From assembly GCF_017377505.1 (NCBI RefSeq), contig NZ_JAFREN010000012.1:62001-126000 (forward strand): a stretch of DNA of 64,000 nucleotides, written 5' to 3'. The notes under the pieces were generated by a model. It worked only from the letters and a program-made list of their open reading frames with translations, had not been told where the DNA came from and made no database searches. Positions 26,393 through 36,334 of the stretch are shown here, in pieces. Each line of letters begins with the position of its first letter. Position 1 is the stretch's first letter. This stretch comes from Enterococcus sp. DIV0212c. GTDB taxonomy: Bacteria > Bacillota > Bacilli > Lactobacillales > Enterococcaceae. The position numbers were made by a program, and so were the translations under genes.

Positions 26393-27865
26393 TCATCTTT
26401 TACCATGTAGTTCGCGAATTTTCATTCTGATTTGATTGATATCATAAGTCGATCCTAATTCGGATAACACATAAACCTCTTTTGCAGATCGATAATTATT
26501 TGGCTTCATGACATTTGTGATCATTAAGTCATATGTCCGTTTGGAATCATAAGGCTCAATCGTTAAACCATTCAAATTTTTCAAGCTCAAAACTAATACC
26601 TGCGTCATTACTTCCTTATACAGATGATCCATCTTCAAATCAATTCCGATACGTGTTTCTCCGACAATCTCAAAATCAATGATTGCCAGCACACTTAAAT
26701 ACTTCACCAATGACCATTCATGTAAGCTATTACCTTGTTCATACTTCGTATCAAAGCATTCTAAGCTTTTATCTAAAAGAACATGTGAGAAATCTGCTAA
26801 TTGATGACTAGAAAGATGCTGTTCTTTTTGCCATATATTTTCCCGATCAAACAACTCCAACTCTCCTTTAAAAAAATACAGCCGGCTATGAATCTGAGAA
26901 AAATAATAAAAAATCTTTTTCTCTAATTCCGGGAAAAATTTTTGCGGACGATAATACAAGATGACATGTTCCAACACAAATGTATCCGCCAAAGAAGTTG
27001 GGGTACGCCGCCCTCGAATCAAACTATACGCAGCAAAATCCGACTGGGCTAAAACCGACATACTCGTTAAAAAAATAAAATGCAGTAAACTTTCTTCTTC
27101 ATCGATTTCAAGAGGATAACGACTAAAAAAACGGATCACAAATGCGCGCAATGTTTTGAAAAAAGGATCTTGTTCGTAGCTTTTACTTTTGCTATATAAT
27201 TCTTTAAATACTTTTGACTGAACCAAGATTCTTTTTTTACTGATTGTCAGCCACAAGCTAATTTTCAATTTGCTATATTCTTCAAATGAAAGAGACAACG
27301 CCTTTTCCAAAGCTTCGATGATTCTAGAATTTTGAACAGTCAGTGTTTTTTCTCGATGAACCTCATAAGGGGTTAAAAACCAATAAATTTGAAAATAAAA
27401 ATAACGAATCTGCAGTTCTTCCCCTTTTAATTGTCCATTACGGATTCTAAGCTCAAACTCTTGCAGCAACTGATTTAATTCTTTGATTTTTCTGAATAAC
27501 GAAGACTCACTGATCATAAATTTGGTCGTTAATTGAGCAATCGTAAATTCTTGATAATGAAATAAATGATCAATCAGCTGAAACTTGATCGAAGCCCGAA
27601 CATAATCATCTAAAACCTTACTGACAGAAAACTGATCTGACATGTGGAGCGCCACCCATTGTCCATCATAAAATAACGAACAATCTTTTTCATAGGGTTT
27701 CAAATAATAGCCTAGCTCTTTTAAATCACTTTCAAAAGAAGCCTTTGAGACACCTAAATAATCCAATAGCTCTGTATCAGCTATACGCCCGCCAGCTAAA
27801 ATTACTTTTCTCAAAATACCAATTTCTCTTGCTTCTTTTTTATCAAGTAATTCTTCAATCTTCAT
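26393..27865 (-). CDS. Mga-type helix-turn-helix regulator, 490 aa
   Basis: The N-terminal HTH (LRKVILAGGRIADTELLDYLGVSKASFESDLKELG) and a second HTH near residue 115 (FTIAQLTTKFMISESSLFRKIKELNQLL) match the Mga HTH pair, followed by a long helical region. I start at ATG 27865, with GGAG 8 bases upstream; this start overlaps the stop of the flavoprotein gene by 11 bases, so translation is coupled. Its regulon is unknown; the coupling suggests control of the flavoprotein or of the adjacent glycerol genes. Confidence 0.8.
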   Translation of the reverse strand: MKIEELLDKKEAREIGILRKVILAGGRIADTELLDYLGVSKASFESDLKELGYYLKPYEKDCSLFYDGQWVALHMSDQFSVSKVLDDYVRASIKFQLIDHLFHYQEFTIAQLTTKFMISESSLFRKIKELNQLLQEFELRIRNGQLKGEELQIRYFYFQIYWFLTPYEVHREKTLTVQNSRIIEALEKALSLSFEEYSKLKISLWLTISKKRILVQSKVFKELYSKSKSYEQDPFFKTLRAFVIRFFSRYPLEIDEEESLLHFIFLTSMSVLAQSDFAAYSLIRGRRTPTSLADTFVLEHVILYYRPQKFFPELEKKIFYYFSQIHSRLYFFKGELELFDRENIWQKEQHLSSHQLADFSHVLLDKSLECFDTKYEQGNSLHEWSLVKYLSVLAIIDFEIVGETRIGIDLKMDHLYKEVMTQVLVLSLKNLNGLTIEPYDSKRTYDLMITNVMKPNNYRSAKEVYVLSELGSTYDINQIRMKIRELHGKR

Positions 27866-29189
27866 CTGCTTCACTCCATAAACCAGCTAAAGCCAACTGG
27901 TTCGTTATATCTAGAACGTTAGAAAAATAAGGATGATACAAAAAATCTTTTTGGTAAAACTCTTCCAATGTTTGCCCCATTTGAATACCAAGAGCAAGTG
28001 TGTTGATTTTTTCTAAGATATTAGCTTTTGAAACTAATTGAGCACCTAGAATTTTATGGCTGTCTACTTCATAAATAATTTTCCCGGTGATTTTTTCATT
28101 CCCTAAAAATGAGGAACTGTATTGTTCAACCTGTGAGGCGGCAATTGGCTGCTCATGAAATAACCCTTCTGCTTCGGTCAAACCTGTACTTGCTATATAA
28201 TAATCGACAAGTTTTGTCCCAATCGTGCGAATCGACCCAACAAATGGCGTTGTGGATTCTACAAGATTTTGAGCAACAACCAAGCCCGTTCTTACTGCAT
28301 TGTTCACTAATGGGATATAAAATGATTCATTCGACAAACTATACGGTACTTGAATACAATCACCAATTGCAAACACATCTGCTTGAGAGGTTTCTAAGTA
28401 TTCATTCACAATAACAGTCTGATCTGTATGTGTTTTGATAGCTTCATCTAAATAACCCAAATCAGGCCGTACATTCATCGCAAAAATAGCAGAGTCACAT
28501 AATAAGTGAGATTTTTTCGTCTCAATTATCAGCCCGTCTTCTGTATCGTTTATTTTTTCTACAGTCTCATCAAAATGAAAAACGACTCCTTTGGCTCCTA
28601 GTTCTTCTTGGACTGGCTGAATCATTTCTTGATCAAAATACTTAAATAATAAGTAATCCATCCGCTCAAACAAATGCACTTCTTTTCCTTTTTTCACCAA
28701 TGTATCGGCTGCTTCTGCTCCGATCTGACCACCGCCGATCAAGGCTACTTTATCACTTGTTTCCAATTGCTCGATTGCTTGTATAACGCCAGGTAAAAAT
28801 TTATATTTTAAAACCTTTTCCGAATCACTGCCCAGAATTTTCTGTGACCATTGACTTGAACCAGTCGCTAAAATCAGTTTATCAAACGACATAAGAGATT
28901 CTGTCTCTTGTGTCTCACATTTGATGGTATGCTGCTTTGAATCCATACTGACTACTTTTGTATTTAATAATAAGTGAATGTCTTTGTCTGCCAATTGTTT
29001 TTCTGAAATAAATTGAGCTTCTTCGACAGGTTCAATCACTTCATTAAAATAAAGATTGATCCCACCTGGTAAATAACCAACTGTTTGTTGTTTTTCAATT
29101 AAATAAATTTCAGCTTTAGGGTGTTTTTTCCTAGTCGCTAACGCAGCAGATACTCCGGCAAAAGAAGCGCCAATAATCACAACTTTCAA
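27855..29189 (-). CDS. Nox/CoA-disulfide-reductase-like FAD-NAD(P) oxidoreductase with Gly42, 444 aa
   Basis: FAD motif VVIIGASFAGVSAAL (3-17), NAD motif VALIGGGQIGAEAADTLV (about 165-182), VFAIGDC near 290 and a dimerisation domain place it in the Nox/Npr/CoADR family. The residue that is redox-active Cys42 in those enzymes reads Gly42 (YLPGGINLY instead of FLSCGIALY). Water-forming oxidase or peroxidase chemistry that needs the Cys is unlikely; H2O2 formation or another acceptor is possible. It forms a two-gene operon with the Mga-type regulator, upstream of glpKOF. Confidence 0.85.
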   Translation of the reverse strand: MKVVIIGASFAGVSAALATRKKHPKAEIYLIEKQQTVGYLPGGINLYFNEVIEPVEEAQFISEKQLADKDIHLLLNTKVVSMDSKQHTIKCETQETESLMSFDKLILATGSSQWSQKILGSDSEKVLKYKFLPGVIQAIEQLETSDKVALIGGGQIGAEAADTLVKKGKEVHLFERMDYLLFKYFDQEMIQPVQEELGAKGVVFHFDETVEKINDTEDGLIIETKKSHLLCDSAIFAMNVRPDLGYLDEAIKTHTDQTVIVNEYLETSQADVFAIGDCIQVPYSLSNESFYIPLVNNAVRTGLVVAQNLVESTTPFVGSIRTIGTKLVDYYIASTGLTEAEGLFHEQPIAASQVEQYSSSFLGNEKITGKIIYEVDSHKILGAQLVSKANILEKINTLALGIQMGQTLEEFYQKDFLYHPYFSNVLDITNQLALAGLWSEADED

Positions 29190-29288: not shown

Positions 29289-29337
29289 TAAAAAAACGAT
29301 CTGCTTACTCAACAGATAATTGAGTAGACAGACCGTT
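29289..29337 (-). terminator. Terminator of the LCP gene
   Basis: Arms 29295-29312 and 29320-29337 form an 18-position stem with two mismatches (TTACTCAA/TTGAGTA core), followed by Ts on the minus strand, 17 bases after the stop. Confidence 0.8.
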
Positions 29338-29353
29338 TATATTTAATTACATA

Positions 29354-30268
29354 TTAATTTCCCTTAAGAAAAGCTTGGATTGCTTCAGCATTCTGCTGCT
29401 CATCTAGCTCAATAACACTACCAGACTCCGTGTAATCATTGAAGTTCCATGAACCTTCTACCGGAACTGAAAGTGATTCTAATGATTTTACTTTTCCAGA
29501 TAAGAAATCTTTAGCTAAATCGATCAAGAGGTTAGTCGGGACATTGGTATCGATTTTACCAACTAGTTTTCCTGCAACTTGTGGCAATTCCCATACTGGA
29601 ATCAAATCTTTTGACTGATCGATCAATGCATCCATGACTTGTTGCTGACGTCTTATACGACCAAAATCTCCTTCTTCATCCATTCTAAAACGTGCATATT
29701 GTAATAAGCTATTTCCATGCAACGTCTGCTTGCCTTTAAATATATCGACACCATCTAGATTAATATCTTTTTCAGCTTCGATCGTGACTCCTTTTGGATA
29801 TAGCTCGTCAATAATATCGCTGAACTCTTTAAAATCCATCACCACATAATAATTGATTGGTAAATTAAAATTACTCTTCAGTACATCTTTTGTCATTTGT
29901 GCACCACCGTAAGCGTATGCTGCATTTATTTTATCTAGTCCGCCATCAGGAAATGTTACATAACTGTCTCTCATGATCGAAATCAATTTAGGCTGTTTCG
30001 TTTTTCCATCATAGTGCGCGACCATAAGCGTATCTGAACGACCTTGATCCTCGTCGTCATCTCTCGAATCATTTCCGACTACCATCACAGTCAGTTCTTT
30101 ATCGCTTGTTTGCTCATCACCAGTAAAATTTTGGTTTTTATCAGAAAGTTTTGCTTCACTTTTTTCTTTCGCTGTTTGAAATGAGATCGCGGCATAACAG
30201 CCTGCACTAACGACCACTAAGAGAATAGATAATAACGTAATAATTCCTATTTTTACAGATTTTTTCAT
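29354..30268 (-). CDS. LytR-CpsA-Psr family cell-wall polymer ligase, 304 aa
   Basis: LCP proteins transfer teichoic-acid or capsule-type polymers from lipid carriers to peptidoglycan or glycoprotein and use Mg2+. A membrane helix (about 6-27) is followed by the LCP domain: VMVVGNDSRDDDEDQGRSDTLMVAH, PKLISIMRDSYVTFP, DKINAAYAYGG and the arginine-rich FGRIRRQQQV. The start is ATG 30268 with AAAGGAA upstream; an in-frame codon at 30331 would lie in the riboswitch terminator. The gene stands alone behind an M-box riboswitch and a strong promoter, so low Mg2+ should induce it. Which polymer it transfers is unknown. Confidence 0.92.
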   Translation of the reverse strand: MKKSVKIGIITLLSILLVVVSAGCYAAISFQTAKEKSEAKLSDKNQNFTGDEQTSDKELTVMVVGNDSRDDDEDQGRSDTLMVAHYDGKTKQPKLISIMRDSYVTFPDGGLDKINAAYAYGGAQMTKDVLKSNFNLPINYYVVMDFKEFSDIIDELYPKGVTIEAEKDINLDGVDIFKGKQTLHGNSLLQYARFRMDEEGDFGRIRRQQQVMDALIDQSKDLIPVWELPQVAGKLVGKIDTNVPTNLLIDLAKDFLSGKVKSLESLSVPVEGSWNFNDYTESGSVIELDEQQNAEAIQAFLKGN

Positions 30269-30308
30269 TGTTGATTCCTTTCTACAACTCGAATGTTTTG
30301 CGGTGTAC

Positions 30309-30560
30309 AAAAAAACCTCCACCAAGAACACTCAGCGAAGGGATTAGATTACAGGGGTTAAAACTCACGACGACCGCCAGTTATTTACAACTTACCTAGA
30401 TCTTCTCTTCGTTGAGTTTTAGCACTATATAACGTAAAAAGCATTGCTTTTAGCTGCTTTGAAAATCGCCTTAATTCGACGACTTTTGTCCTACCCGTGC
30501 CTGTCTTTCGACATTTCTGAGCAGCAGCCTATGTTTATATAGGAGCCTCACCTAACAAGT
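30309..30560 (-). promoter_or_regulatory. M-box (Mg2+, ykoK-type) riboswitch with intrinsic terminator
   Basis: On the minus strand the conserved M-box segments occur in order: TTAGGTGAGGCTCCTATAT, CTGCTGCTCAGAAATGTCG, AAAGAC, GCAGCTAAAAGC and GTGCTAAAACTC. P1 is formed by CTTGTT (30559-30554) with AACGAAG (30413-30407). CCTTCGCT (30341-30334) and GGTGGAGG (30323-30316) followed by seven Ts make the terminator. CTTCGCTGAGT (30340-30330) can instead pair 10 of 11 with ACTCAACGAAG (30417-30407) as antiterminator. Mg2+ binding should hold P1 and terminate. The controlled gene is the LCP gene, 40 bases downstream. Confidence 0.93.
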
Positions 30561-30576
30561 ATTTAATTCATTTTAC

Positions 30577-30605
30577 ACTATAAGCGTATCGCCTCACAAA
30601 GTCAA
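30577..30605 (-). promoter_or_regulatory. Sigma-A promoter of the M-box-LCP transcript
   Basis: TTGACT (30605-30600), 17 bases, TATAGT (30582-30577), placing the transcription start near 30570, just before the M-box. The region 30606-30860 shows nothing else recognisable. Confidence 0.85.
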
Positions 30606-32067: not shown

Positions 32068-33114
32068 TTAATTCTGTTTTTTCTTACGCCACAAAATATA
32101 TCCTTGAATAAGGACGAGTAAAGCTAATAAAACAATCACTAAAATCAACCACATAGGAACTTTACTTACAACCTTAGTTTCTTTATTTTCTTCATTGATT
32201 ACCTTCGCTTGTTCCCTAGTAATCTCAAATTCATTTTCAAATGCCCATTTTTTCCCCTCTTGATTGATCAGCGTTTTACTAATATATTTTCCGGGTTGTA
32301 ACTGTCTTTTGATTGGCACTGGAAAATCCATCACAGAATCTGGCGCCATTTCCAACGCTTCTTTTTCCAACTTGATCAAAGGAGTCTCTTCCCCTTTTTT
32401 TCGAATTTCAAATTTTAGGTTCATTTTCTTTGAAATTGCTGCATTTTTATTGCGAATCGCATGAATCACTGATATTTTTTTTCCTTGTTTGGATTTCGCT
32501 ACTTTTACTGAATCCATTTCATAATCAGGTAAAACCGATGTATCTGTCTCGTTCAAGACAACACCGACAACATAATGAAATCGCTGATTGATGGTCACAT
32601 CTTTATTTTTAGTTTCACTTTCAGGTAAATTTTTGGTAAAACGCAGTCCACCTACAATAACACCATCATATTTTTCCTTTGGCATTTTCAAATGAAAACG
32701 AGCAATTTTCGTTTCATATGGTTGCAAAGAAATATTCGTCTCAAGTACCTTGATCAACGATTCAAAAGGATACTTCAAGCTTTTATCTTTAACCCCTCTT
32801 AAAGTGTAATCGATCATTCCCTCTTCCGTAGTCGTTGCGTTCAACGCATTGACTGAAATAGAAATTGGCTCATCTTCTGGATTGACTAACTTAACTTGCA
32901 ACTCTTGTTCTGCTTCTGGCAATATTCGCAAATCAAAATATGATTTGTTGAGATCAACTTGATTCTGCGGAATAACTGCTTGTACATAAAAACTGTTTGT
33001 TTCTTCACTCTTTTCTTGCGCCAAAACAACTTTTGTATTCAATAAACTAAATAAAAATATAATTGCAATAGGAAAAAATGTATAACGAATGTTTAACCGA
33101 AAGCACCCTCTCAT
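32068..33114 (-). CDS. DUF916/DUF3324 cell-surface protein, WxL locus 1, 348 aa
   Basis: Signal peptide (to about residue 33), an N-terminal DUF916 domain (YFDLRILPEAEQELQVKLVN, about 60-180), a DUF3324 domain (about 190-305, GVVLNETDTSVLPDYEM) and a C-terminal membrane helix with a basic tail (WLILVIVLLALLVLIQGYILW, RKKKQN). These two domains are described as peptidoglycan- and host-binding partners of WxL proteins. It is the last gene of the locus. GGAG lies 8 bases before ATG 33114. A paralogue is at 49701. Confidence 0.92.
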   Translation of the reverse strand: MRGCFRLNIRYTFFPIAIIFLFSLLNTKVVLAQEKSEETNSFYVQAVIPQNQVDLNKSYFDLRILPEAEQELQVKLVNPEDEPISISVNALNATTTEEGMIDYTLRGVKDKSLKYPFESLIKVLETNISLQPYETKIARFHLKMPKEKYDGVIVGGLRFTKNLPESETKNKDVTINQRFHYVVGVVLNETDTSVLPDYEMDSVKVAKSKQGKKISVIHAIRNKNAAISKKMNLKFEIRKKGEETPLIKLEKEALEMAPDSVMDFPVPIKRQLQPGKYISKTLINQEGKKWAFENEFEITREQAKVINEENKETKVVSKVPMWLILVIVLLALLVLIQGYILWRKKKQN

Positions 33115-33140
33115 TTAATTCACTCCTTTCATTTAATCAG

Positions 33141-33184
33141 AAAAAAAGAGTGGAATAAAATACTGCTCATCCCACTCTTTTTAG
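33141..33184 (-). terminator. Stem-loop between WxL and DUF916 genes, locus 1
   Basis: AAAGAGTGGAAT (33145-33156) pairs with ATCCCACTCTTT (33169-33180) with a T run on the minus strand. It looks like a terminator inside the locus, so the DUF916 gene may depend on read-through. Confidence 0.75.
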
Positions 33185-33198
33185 ATCACGCTTTAATT

Positions 33199-33801
33199 CT
33201 ATGGCGCATCAGCCAATGTCCAGTCGATCGTAGAGGTATGTTTACCAAGTGTTGCCATTGCTGCTGGCACTTCTAGTGTCACGCCTGTGTTTTCAGCATC
33301 TGGCCAAGTGAATGTCCATGTTCCAGCACCTGCTCCTGCTGCAGCAGTTGCAAATGGTGTCGCAGTTGCAGCTCCGCTCGTTAATTTGACTGTATTAACT
33401 GGTGTTGGTGCATCTGCATCACTATTTGTGCCTGCTTGTGTATTTTTAAAATTCAAGCTGGCATTCGGTAAAGAAGCCGCAGCGGAACTGTTTTTAAAAC
33501 CATTTAATTTTCCACTAAGTTTCCAGCCGGCATTTGTTCCGCGAGCATCAGAAACAACCACATTGATCGTATCAGGATTTGTCGGAATATAAGAAGCATC
33601 ATTTACTGAGATTGTTTGTGACGCATAGCTGATTGTAGAAACAGCTTCTAAAGTTAAAGCTCCTGGTGTAAATGTAACATCCAAATCAGTTGCTTTATTA
33701 ATATCAGCAGCTGATGCAGATTGACCTAAAAATAATGTACCAAAAACAATCGATAAGAGTAAAACTTTGGAACCAGTGTTAACGAACGTTGTATTTTTCA
33801 T
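33199..33801 (-). CDS. WxL-domain surface protein, locus 1, 200 aa
   Basis: A signal peptide ending at QSASA-AD (about residue 32) and almost nothing but a WxL domain: the two motifs are in GWKL (about residue 93) and IDWTLADAP at the C-terminus. WxL domains bind peptidoglycan non-covalently and recruit partner proteins. AAAGG precedes ATG 33801. It lies 34 bases after the large repeat protein gene and before a terminator-like hairpin. Confidence 0.95.
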   Translation of the reverse strand: MKNTTFVNTGSKVLLLSIVFGTLFLGQSASAADINKATDLDVTFTPGALTLEAVSTISYASQTISVNDASYIPTNPDTINVVVSDARGTNAGWKLSGKLNGFKNSSAAASLPNASLNFKNTQAGTNSDADAPTPVNTVKLTSGAATATPFATAAAGAGAGTWTFTWPDAENTGVTLEVPAAMATLGKHTSTIDWTLADAP

Positions 33802-33835
33802 TTTCTACACCCTTTCTTTATTAAAAAATCCTATT

Positions 33836-36334
33836 TTATTTGGCACCGACAGAAACAATGGTTCTACCACTTGCCGCTGACTCAGTACCAAGTGTTGCCG
33901 CTGTATTAAAGGTAATCGACGTACCAGCTGCTAATTGACGACCAGAAATATCTAGTGAAAACGTGCCGTCTGCATTAACGGGTGTTTCTTCATAAACATT
34001 TCCAGGGAACCTCACTCTCACTTTAAATTGAGTCCCTTCTGGAGGATTAACAATCTTAACAGTTCCTTTGATTGCTGTATCACCAACAAAAATTGGTGCT
34101 ACAACTGGTGTAGGCACAACATAACCTTCTAAAGATGGGATCTTACCGACTGCAAAAACTACGCTATCACTTTCTTTCCCTTTTAAAGATTGAGCATGTT
34201 CTGCAACGGTTACTAATCTCAGTGGATTACCTTCTTTCAAGTTTTTATCTGCTACAGGAATCGAAAAAGTACCATCATTTTCAATCGCTACTTTTCTCAC
34301 AGAACCATCAGAAAATTGGACTTGCATAAATAATTTAGTCCCTGTAGGAACATTTGTTAACGCAATTGAACCTGTGATCACTTTACTTCCTTCATTAACA
34401 GTTTTGAATTGCGGTTTTGGAACTTGATAGTTTTTCAACGGATCCACGATAACTTGTTTGATTTCTGGTTCACTGACATTTGTTCGTTTACCATCACTCG
34501 CTTCAACAGTTACTTTCAATGAGTCGTTCCCTTGAGGTTGATACTTACCAAATGGAATCGTAAAGCTGCCATCTTCATTGATTGAAGCAGTTAAATTAGT
34601 GCCATCAGGTAATGCCACTTTGGCAGTAAAAGTCACACCATTTGGAATAGGCTGAGTTAGATCAACACTTCCACTAAGACTAAGTGCACCTTCTAAAACA
34701 TCACCAATCACTGGTTTTGCAACCACATAATGTAAAAATGGATCAGCTAAGACTTGTTTGATTTCCGGTTCACTGACTTTGGTTTGTTTTCCATTACTTG
34801 CTTCAATCACTACTTTTAATTGATCATTACTTTGTGGTTGATAGTTACCAAATGGAATCGTAAAACTACCATCACTATTTACTGTACCAGTCAGATTAGT
34901 TCCATCTGGCAACTCGACTTTCGCTTTAAAAACCACGCCTTCTGGTACTGGTTGAATGATTGGTACATTTCCTTTGAGACTTGTCATACCTTCTATAACA
35001 TCCTCAACAACTGGTTTTGCAACTGGGTATTTCACAAATGGATCCGCTATTACTTGTTTAATTTCTGGTTCACTAGTTTTGCTATATTGACCTACACTTG
35101 CTTCAATTACAATTTTTAGCTGATCATTTCCTTGAGCTTCGTAGTCGCCAAACGGAATTGCAAATGTTCCATCTTCATTCACCGTTCCAGATAAAATCGT
35201 TCCATTAGGCAATTCAAGTTTCGCTTTAAAACTCACACCTTGTGGAACCGGCTGTGTAATCACTACACTTCCATTAAGACTCGTTACACCTTCTAAAACA
35301 TCTTCAACAACTGGTTTTGCAACTGGGTACTCAGCTAACGGATCTTCCTCCACCTTATCAAAATAAAGATTGATGGCATCACCATTTGCATGAATCGTAT
35401 TCAATAATTCTAAATCGATGACGGGTTTATTCACTGCCATCGCAGTAACTTTCGCTTTTTCAGCCGTTACATCAGATACTTTAGTAGAAAAATCGAAATC
35501 AACATCTCCAAGTACATTGGCTTGTAACGCCTGTGTTAATACATCAGATGTGCCATTAGCTATTTTCCCTACAAGATCAAGTAACCCATTAACAGCTGGT
35601 TTTAGTAAATTCAGCACAGGATTCAATATTGCCAAAAGTCCAGTAAATTTTAATCCGTCTACTGCTTCTTTTAATGGATTAAATAAATTAGCATACGTTG
35701 AACGAACATATTGTCCTAACCCATCCGTAAAATCGACCATGACATATTTTCCATCTGGTGACAATTCGCCTTCAACTGAAGCATGATAGCTGCCTAAATC
35801 TTGAAGAGAATTAAGCCCTTCAAACGCTTTTTCCAATGAGTCTAGTTGTAAGCCTAAAGGTTTTGCCAACCCAAGTAATTTAGTCACTAAACCGCCTACA
35901 TTTAAAATCAAATCCTTGACCACAGGAACATCCCCAGGAACAATAGGAAGAAGTTTGGCATTCGCATTGATTACAATTGGTCCATCGATCTTACCCCGTA
36001 ATTCTTCTGGAATCGCAAAAACAATAACCTTTGGCGATATTAAACCAACATCAGCAACGGCTGTTCCTTTAAACGAAAGGTCTAAATCATATGTAGAATC
36101 TTCATTTTTTTCCAACTTGACACCATCGTTGATGATTGTTCCATTGTTGGAAGATAATTGTGTTCCTTTTAAAATACTGACGTCTGCTAAATCCGCAGCA
36201 TTTGCCGACTCAGCAGCACTCACTTCATACTCACTATTGTCCCTAAAAAATAACAGTGAATTCGGAATGACTGCGGCAGATAGTAAAGCTGTAGTCCCCA
36301 CTAACGTAATTATAGAACGATAACGCTTTTTCAT
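33836..36334 (-). CDS. Large secreted repeat protein of WxL locus 1, 832 aa
   Basis: A signal peptide (about 1-40, AAVIPNSLLFF...VSAAES) is followed by an about 290-residue N-terminal domain of adhesin-like character and, from about residue 332, five about 100-residue Ig-like repeats. The first three share PVAKPVV.DV.EG, LPDGT.LTG and SEPEIKQV motifs and are similar at DNA level. There is no LPxTG motif, WxL domain or C-terminal membrane helix, so retention must be through partners, presumably the WxL or DUF916 products. AAAGGAGG precedes the ATG. First gene of the locus. Confidence 0.85.
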   Translation of the reverse strand: MKKRYRSIITLVGTTALLSAAVIPNSLLFFRDNSEYEVSAAESANAADLADVSILKGTQLSSNNGTIINDGVKLEKNEDSTYDLDLSFKGTAVADVGLISPKVIVFAIPEELRGKIDGPIVINANAKLLPIVPGDVPVVKDLILNVGGLVTKLLGLAKPLGLQLDSLEKAFEGLNSLQDLGSYHASVEGELSPDGKYVMVDFTDGLGQYVRSTYANLFNPLKEAVDGLKFTGLLAILNPVLNLLKPAVNGLLDLVGKIANGTSDVLTQALQANVLGDVDFDFSTKVSDVTAEKAKVTAMAVNKPVIDLELLNTIHANGDAINLYFDKVEEDPLAEYPVAKPVVEDVLEGVTSLNGSVVITQPVPQGVSFKAKLELPNGTILSGTVNEDGTFAIPFGDYEAQGNDQLKIVIEASVGQYSKTSEPEIKQVIADPFVKYPVAKPVVEDVIEGMTSLKGNVPIIQPVPEGVVFKAKVELPDGTNLTGTVNSDGSFTIPFGNYQPQSNDQLKVVIEASNGKQTKVSEPEIKQVLADPFLHYVVAKPVIGDVLEGALSLSGSVDLTQPIPNGVTFTAKVALPDGTNLTASINEDGSFTIPFGKYQPQGNDSLKVTVEASDGKRTNVSEPEIKQVIVDPLKNYQVPKPQFKTVNEGSKVITGSIALTNVPTGTKLFMQVQFSDGSVRKVAIENDGTFSIPVADKNLKEGNPLRLVTVAEHAQSLKGKESDSVVFAVGKIPSLEGYVVPTPVVAPIFVGDTAIKGTVKIVNPPEGTQFKVRVRFPGNVYEETPVNADGTFSLDISGRQLAAGTSITFNTAATLGTESAASGRTIVSVGAK

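Follow-up and report, generated by a model that had tools for sequence, protein, structure and literature searches.

The LytR-CpsA-Psr (LCP) gene described here lies within a window of 64,000 nucleotides (the whole stretch of Enterococcus sp. DIV0212c DNA that was analysed), where it stands behind a complete M-box, the Mg2+ riboswitch aptamer of Rfam family RF00380. Judging from the sequences of this leader and its relatives, the M-box would act as a Mg2+-off transcription attenuator on the LCP gene, and the LCP gene would be one arm of an Enterococcaceae wall regulon responding to Mg2+ starvation, a reading to which we assign a probability of roughly 80%. The members of such a regulon would be FtsW-like and RodA-like SEDS proteins, a PAP2 phosphatase and LCP ligases; in this genus the enzymes would be extra copies beside the housekeeping ones, and the type of switch would be common to them and to Mg2+ transporters. 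The regulon might then serve to sustain wall assembly and polymer attachment, and to alter the composition of the wall, when Mg2+ limits the housekeeping enzymes. The features on which the reading is built are collected in Table 1.

Table 1. Features of the M-box leader, the LCP gene and its downstream flank, in window coordinates
Feature	Position	Strand	Basis
Sigma-70-type promoter TTGACT-17-TATAGT	30577..30605	-	10/12 consensus matches
M-box (Mg2+) riboswitch aptamer, RF00380	30398..30566	-	Rfam covariance-model match
P1 5' strand CTTGTT	30554..30559	-	Pairing across 17 leaders
Antiterminator strand ACTCAACGAAG, containing P1 3' strand AACGAAG (30413-30407)	30407..30417	-	Pairing, alignment
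Intrinsic terminator, 11-pair stem (30341-30316) and U run	30309..30341	-	Scan and alignment
Ribosome-binding site GAAAGG	30277..30282	-	Read from sequence
LCP (LytR-CpsA-Psr) gene, 304 aa	29354..30268	-	ORF from ATG at 30268 to stop at 29354; PF03816
Probable intrinsic terminator closing the LCP transcript	29290..29335	-	Hairpin of about -20 kcal/mol and seven T
Pyridine-nucleotide disulphide oxidoreductase gene, next after LCP	29189-27855		Profile match

The RNA of the window is a plain member of RF00380. The covariance model matched the leader at 141.7 bits (E 5.4e-32), the gathering threshold being 44, and positions 1-169 of the 169 in the model were aligned without truncation, so that the M-box core claimed in a preliminary description of this DNA can be extended to a complete aptamer, P1 included. 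This was the sole match in the 64 kb window, with no second Rfam family reaching its gathering threshold. The strong promoter claimed in the same description was located upstream of the aptamer, and the expression platform and the gene follow downstream on the same strand. Conservation was assessed in an alignment of 17 leaders, comprising that of the window and 16 orthologues from the genus, and TTGAC[A/T]-17-TATAGT was present in all 17. By number alone, neither the promoter-like sites found by scanning (16 versus 16.2 expected) nor the terminator-like sites found by the consensus scan (1 versus 1.9 expected) are above chance, and the weight of both therefore rests on position and conservation. 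Chance or artefact as the source of the M-box itself is ruled out by the RF00380 match together with the 17 conserved leaders. One further leader, at locus L054 of genome G012, falls outside the alignment; on visual inspection it shows the P1/antiterminator tail of the others and a terminator, and its LCP groups with the clade of the window protein.

The expression platform can be followed pair by pair through the 17 leaders. P1 forms all 6 of its pairs in 16 leaders and 5 of 6 in the other one, and its 3' strand lies within ACTCAACGAAG, the arrangement needed for the competition between P1 and antiterminator that had been described earlier. In the window leader, ACTCAACGAAG pairs with CTTCGCTGAGT at 10 of 11 positions, the very count given before. 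When 10 of these pairs were scored across the alignment, the A/C mismatch being left out, 14 leaders formed all 10, two formed 9 and one formed 8. The length of this helix is weak evidence when taken alone, as 201 of 5000 shuffled sequences also reach 10 of 11 pairs, and a search for covariation in the window-family alignment found none for the antiterminator because it is nearly invariant. The terminator stem, which is the sole terminator-like site of the consensus scan between 28500 and 33000, keeps 11 of 11 pairs in 14 leaders and 10 of 11 in three; its covariation is slight, as a single pair has changes on both strands, 98.9 per cent of alignment cells are paired and 31 of 500 shuffles do equally well. 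The 5' arm of this stem (30340-30330) is also the antiterminator's partner, and with one strand common to both, the two structures are mutually exclusive, as had been proposed. Folding of the window leader gave -68.9 kcal/mol for the terminator state versus -64.8 kcal/mol for the antiterminator state, the free minimum being the terminator, and a penalty of about 4 kcal/mol for the antiterminator suits a kinetically controlled switch.

In the established mechanism of M-boxes, P1 is stabilised at high Mg2+ and transcription terminates, while at low Mg2+ there is read-through. Applied to the window leader, this would mean that at high Mg2+ a compacted aptamer keeps AACGAAG within P1, which would leave CTTCGCTGAGT free to form the terminator and would turn the LCP gene off. 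At low Mg2+, P1 would open and ACTCAACGAAG would pair with CTTCGCTGAGT, so that the terminator would be blocked and LCP mRNA made. The proposed sign of control, with expression off when Mg2+ is high, is drawn by analogy from this mechanism and from the occurrence of the same platform before Mg2+ transporter genes of the genus.

The gene behind the leader encodes a clear LCP protein, with a PF03816 match of 153.9 bits (E 4.5e-45) against a gathering score of 24.6. Among proteins of solved structure, the nearest in sequence is S. aureus MsrR (6uex, E 3.4e-53), and by eye the N-terminus of the window protein is short and hydrophobic. Against the TagU equivalog NF006897 the window protein scored 151.8 bits, below the NCBIfam cut-off of 441, and the protein is therefore named to the family level (LCP) only. 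Among 64 aligned LCP proteins out of 77 (the other 13 being left out as too short), 9 of 13 inspected positions are invariant, and the window protein carries the commonest residue at all 13; we take the conserved Arg and Asp positions to be residues of the catalytic pocket. The usual, though not defining, target of an M-box is a Mg2+ transporter, and at the window locus the target is the LCP gene instead. That the LCP gene sits directly behind the leader with no transporter between them, as the preliminary description had it, agrees with the gene content found here. Moreover, the LCP gene is most likely the lone gene of the M-box transcript. The hairpin placed after its stop codon, at about 29335-29290, was obtained by folding and was not listed by the consensus terminator scan; together with its seven T it makes a Mg2+ transporter on the same transcript, an unannotated one included, unlikely, and the next gene encodes an oxidoreductase.

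The window locus is one of several of its kind in this genome, which holds five M-boxes, two before P-type ATPases and three before LCP genes. The latter three precede the window gene, an operon of LCP, FtsW-like and RodA-like genes, and a gene for a 526-aa PAP2-LCP fusion, respectively, so that three of the five LCP genes and two of the four SEDS genes of the genome are behind M-boxes. The pairing of switch and LCP gene put forward in the preliminary description is upheld by these data, but its restriction to anionic polymers is not: that reading is too narrow because the PAP2-LCP fusion and the LCP-FtsW-RodA operon are also behind M-boxes. The two SEDS proteins of the operon have their best scores to the ftsW and rodA models, respectively, at values below the NCBIfam cut-offs (they are members of PF01098), and they are 40 per cent (FtsW) and 52 per cent (RodA) identical to the housekeeping paralogues. 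For the ATPases, one relative of each class was compared with TIGR01524 (Mg2+ P-type ATPase), giving 1200 and 1088 bits at a cut-off of 611. The remaining two LCP genes of the genome, at L094 and L095, had no M-box in the stretches scanned, and their products fall in other clades of the LCP tree than the window protein.

A survey of the genus shows how widely this arrangement recurs; E. faecalis was not recognised in any of the genomes searched. Across 22 genomes, 95 M-boxes were assigned to classes by means of profiles made from the surveyed loci, and 49 of them, spread over 21 genomes, precede wall genes (32 LCP, 11 PAP2-LCP fusion, 3 PAP2 and 3 SEDS). The others comprise 29 before P-type ATPases, 14 before MgtC, 1 before MgtE, 1 before the acetyltransferase of an MgtC-type operon and 1 unclassed. 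Counted from the side of the genes, a same-strand M-box stands upstream of 43 of 98 LCP genes, at a distance of up to 2 kb, and of 34 of 78 SEDS genes, at up to 4 kb. In each of the 17 genomes that have four SEDS genes, exactly two of these are behind an M-box, and none of the SEDS genes are so placed in the five genomes with two. Within this genus, which is where the extra-copy status of the M-box SEDS genes was checked, the additional pair was found only with an M-box in front.

The synteny of M-box and LCP, for which the preliminary description had looked to other enterococcal genomes, is also evident at loci chosen by similarity to the window LCP. An M-box was present at all nine named loci with an LCP of 85-92 per cent identity to it (L099-L107, from E. 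ureilyticus, E. plantarum, E. moraviensis, E. caccae, E. ureasiticus, E. crotali, E. quebecensis, E. termitis and Enterococcus sp. 5H), and at all five operon LCP loci of 62-64 per cent identity (L108-L112), giving 14 of 14 for loci that may overlap the genomes of the 22-genome survey. More distant enterococcal LCP loci (L113-L120) had no M-box in the scanned stretches, and with L094 and L095 the count is 0 of 10, which rules out a general control of LCP genes by M-boxes. The stretches scanned at two far relatives, L121 and L122, likewise held none. Three of the eight distant loci were placed in the LCP tree (L113, L116 and L120), where they group with L095 and apart from the window LCP.

Outside Enterococcus, 74 of the 156 M-boxes in other genera of the Enterococcaceae were examined, mainly the better-scoring ones, and 37 of these, in 31 of 43 genomes, stand before wall genes, so that the wall share there is at least 37 of 156. 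SEDS genes follow 29 of them: 14 loci read SEDS-SEDS-PAP2-LCP (with PAP2 and LCP fused in 9 and separate in 5), 4 read SEDS-SEDS-LCP, 3 read SEDS-LCP, PAP2 comes last in 3, SEDS stands alone in 1 and the remaining 4 are truncated at the locus end. An M-box accompanies this gene set in spite of varying gene order, the arrangements being SEDS-SEDS-PAP2-LCP, SEDS-SEDS followed by the PAP2-LCP fusion, LCP-SEDS-SEDS, and LCP alone. In other families of the Lactobacillales, wall genes were found at 2 of 49 examined M-boxes (LCP and SEDS at L237, SEDS at L252), with 4 unclassed. Among Bacillota outside the Lactobacillales, none of 29 examined M-boxes had a match to a wall profile in up to 1.5 kb of DNA; 17 precede MgtE, 2 precede P-type ATPases and 10 were without any profile match. 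Fisher's test on the wall shares of 86/169 versus 2/78 gives p 5e-16, a value that is descriptive only because the loci are related by descent and were selected by score. Much of the association between M-boxes and wall genes is indeed shared ancestry, and the counts are not independent. In a tree of 79 SEDS proteins, the FtsW-like M-box proteins group with housekeeping FtsW, and the RodA-like ones form one clade, with support 0.997, close to housekeeping RodA; support is weak at some deep nodes of the tree (0.33, 0.58).

Considering this spread of targets, the leaders of the different wall classes were compared. In the 130 nt that follow the M-box, 85 of 88 wall leaders have a hairpin of -7 kcal/mol or lower with a U tract, versus 72 of 264 shuffled sequences; by class it occurs in 37/38 LCP, 33/33 SEDS, 12/14 fusion and 3/3 PAP2 leaders; a stricter terminator scan that allowed no bulges found 61 of the 88. 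An antiterminator match of 9 of 10 pairs is present in 66 of the 88, and the antiterminator is clearly above shuffled sequences in 21/38 LCP, 1/33 SEDS, 1/14 fusion and 0/3 PAP2 leaders. Promoter-like sites precede 35/38 LCP, 13/14 fusion, 3/3 PAP2 and 17/33 SEDS leaders. When tails were swapped between classes, the leader's own pairing was better in only 14/38 LCP, 5/33 SEDS, 5/14 fusion and 2/3 PAP2 leaders, a negative outcome for the wall leaders from a test that is blunted by a platform common to many leaders; the same test favoured the leader's own pairing in 66/84 P-type ATPase and 19/21 MgtC leaders. Within the genus, one P-type ATPase class and MgtC are preceded by the same tail-to-arm arrangement. 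From these features, transcription attenuation as predicted here has good support in the LCP leaders and is likely in the SEDS, fusion and PAP2 leaders.

What such a switch would be for can be considered from the genes that it accompanies. The purpose suggested in the preliminary description was the capture of Mg2+, whereby low Mg2+ would raise LCP and the wall would then carry more anionic polymer, holding Mg2+ near the membrane. LCP proteins attach anionic polymers, and the presence of M-boxes before three of the five LCP genes is in keeping with this purpose, as is classic chemostat work in which Bacillus reportedly made more wall teichoic acid under Mg2+ limitation. Nevertheless, capture leaves the sharing of M-boxes by the FtsW-like/RodA-like pair and the PAP2 phosphatase unexplained, and we consider it rather unlikely. 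Those same genes are accounted for if the switch is compensatory, such that wall enzymes needing Mg2+ would falter and extra copies, some of them less dependent on Mg2+, would be made. The M-box genes are paralogous to the housekeeping FtsW, RodA and LCP genes, as compensation would have it. In addition, the genome encodes one BacA-type phosphatase and three PAP2 proteins, and the PAP2-LCP fusion is the sole one of these with an M-box in front; PAP2 enzymes are not known to need a metal, whereas BacA does. Further support comes from the R-x-D-T motif, whose Asp is presumably a Mg2+ ligand, as we take it to be in solved LCPs. It is replaced by Asn in all 17 aligned LCPs of the PAP2-LCP lineage (12 fused, 5 unfused) and kept in the 47 other aligned LCPs, including 5 without an M-box. 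Genus fusions cut by locus ends were left out of this alignment (12 of its 13 dropped rows), and the full-length fusion of the window genome itself (L097) has Asn at this position. The window LCP, on the other hand, keeps both acidic residues, which speaks against compensation, and this is offered here as a possible purpose, held tentatively. Somewhat more speculative is its extension to the family as a whole, according to which the Enterococcaceae would possess a wall machinery for Mg2+ starvation, silenced by M-boxes, that consists of FtsW-RodA, LCP and a PAP2 undecaprenyl-diphosphatase and whose members were selected or modified for a reduced need for Mg2+. The use of PAP2 in place of BacA, and the change from Asp to Asn at the presumed Mg2+ ligand in one LCP lineage, would be the means by which that need was lowered.

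It is also conceivable that the M-box was carried along in gene duplication or rearrangement and has no selected role in wall control. The window LCP clade is sister to the clade holding the operon LCPs of most species (support 0.917), and at the 62-64 per cent identity given above, measured across species, a single duplication could have copied leader and gene together. Such passive carriage is improbable, however, given a switch that is nearly fully conserved in 17 leaders, the U-tract hairpins of almost all wall leaders, and the retention of the M-box in genomes where the operon LCP is gone (G003, G006 and G014) or shortened (G001). Even less probable is a switch that responds to some other divalent ion, such as Mn2+, or to general stress (acid or osmotic) and not to the supply of Mg2+. 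This would fit the statement, in excerpts of a review, that M-box RNAs respond to an undefined metal population and not to one ligand (PMC9111926), but two M-boxes of the same genome precede P-type ATPases whose relatives score as Mg2+ ATPases. For the starvation regulon itself, the RNA anatomy and gene content, with their conservation and recurrence, are shown, and a Mg2+ response, the direction of that response and its use to the cell are inferred.

In the open-licence literature (subscription journals and supplements lying outside this scope), no report was found that links an M-box with LytR/LCP, FtsW or RodA. A comparative study of RNA regulons lists Mg2+ transporters among the functions, and the terms rodA, lytR and Enterococc are absent from its main text (PMC3766115). 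M-box, riboswitch and peptidoglycan do co-occur, in other contexts, in excerpts of three further papers (PMC9111926, PMC8844918, PMC12824596). The main interpretation, an M-box that controls an LCP gene, is well supported, and the novelty of the present case resides in its target set, namely a recurrent putative wall regulon centred on the Enterococcaceae. With half of the M-boxes in the genus preceding wall genes (49/95), the prediction of M-box targets should reach beyond transporters. Mg2+ and wall synthesis are linked in Gram-positive bacteria, and we know of no defined genetic route that leads from a sensed level of Mg2+ to wall-building genes. If the proposed reading is correct, an M-box regulon of Mg2+ transporters together with additional SEDS, PAP2 and LCP proteins would provide this route, and through it the long-standing view of wall polymers as serving the Mg2+ supply could be tested directly.

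Each component of the window locus has a familiar counterpart. The mgtE-type M-box of B. subtilis (ykoK leader, RF00380) has the same full-length aptamer and the same layout of P1, antiterminator and intrinsic terminator, and differs from the leaders described here in that the targets of the latter are wall-assembly genes. LCP ligases of the MsrR (LcpA)/TagU type share PF03816 and the conserved Arg and Asp positions with the window protein, whose gene, unlike theirs, sits behind a Mg2+ riboswitch. The FtsW and RodA SEDS polymerases share PF01098 with the M-box pair, which is additional to, and found beside, the housekeeping FtsW and RodA. A broader parallel is provided by the replacement paralogues of ribosomal proteins under Zur, where extra copies are controlled by metal starvation. 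In the system proposed here the control would be exerted by a riboswitch and not a repressor, the metal would be Mg2+ and not Zn2+, the process would be wall assembly and not the ribosome, and the exchange of paralogues is only presumed; if the reading is true, the M-box wall regulon of the Enterococcaceae would be the Mg2+/cell-wall counterpart of the Zur-controlled ribosomal paralogues.

The set of wall genes behind an M-box (the Mg2+ riboswitch RF00380) varies among genomes. At L045, L052, L053 and L055, loci of the LCP-SEDS-SEDS operon, the M-box and the SEDS genes have been retained despite loss or shortening of the LCP gene, which encodes a LytR-CpsA-Psr ligase and is absent in G006, G003 and G014 and shortened in G001. 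At two other loci, L012 and L018 (genomes G011 and G007, respectively), the M-box precedes a gene for a PAP2 phosphatase without an LCP part. The leader itself can also differ, as at L054 (genome G012), where it has diverged and precedes an LCP that falls in the clade of the window protein. By eye, this leader, which stands outside the alignment of 17, has a P1/antiterminator tail like that of window-type leaders and a terminator of 9 pairs.

The LCP proteins of the PAP2-LCP lineage are marked by a substitution at the R-x-D-T site. Asn replaces the Asp in all 17 aligned members from other loci, and likewise in the window genome's own PAP2-LCP fusion; the Asp is kept in the other 47 LCPs of the alignment.

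In the window, the WxL-type cluster encodes a WxL-interacting protein and, judged by eye only, a small WxL-like protein and a large surface protein. On the other side of the M-box LCP gene, an AcpB/EbpR/MafR-family regulator gene is flanked by glpK and the oxidoreductase gene.

Features in the window and at surveyed loci (L, locus; G, genome)
Feature	Location	Strand	Remark
WxL-type cluster	window 32068-36334	-	adjoins M-box LCP gene
AcpB/EbpR/MafR-family regulator	window 26393-27874	-	306.5 bits vs cut-off 130
PAP2-LCP fusion	L097:1234-2811	-	window genome
Tandem repeat	L005:1093-1429		window genome
T-box leader	L200:3381-3625	+	downstream of housekeeping RodA
Tandem M-boxes	L231, G241 contig 16: 177527-177699 and 177862-178040		spacing ~160 nt
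Divergent M-boxes	L172 and L185, G023 contig 32: 433178 and 433952	- and +	<1 kb apart

Some other M-boxes precede Mg2+ genes. At L005, a 129-bp repeat of 2.6 copies lies inside the leader, between the M-box and a P-type ATPase gene; a frame in the L090 leader resembles that of the L005 leader. The order M-box, MgtC, GNAT acetyltransferase occurs at L029, L036, L038 and others, followed in several by a P-type ATPase. The genes downstream of six M-boxes (L140, L189, L238, L244, L251 and L253) had no match to the Mg2+ or wall profiles used; at L140, a GntR-like regulator and sugar-transport genes were recognized by eye downstream of the M-box.

M-boxes also occur in pairs. The tandem pair precedes a single P-type ATPase gene (product of 921 aa). 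With the divergent pair, a PAP2-LCP fusion lies behind one M-box and a SEDS gene behind the other, and the wall gene set is thus divided between two divergent units.
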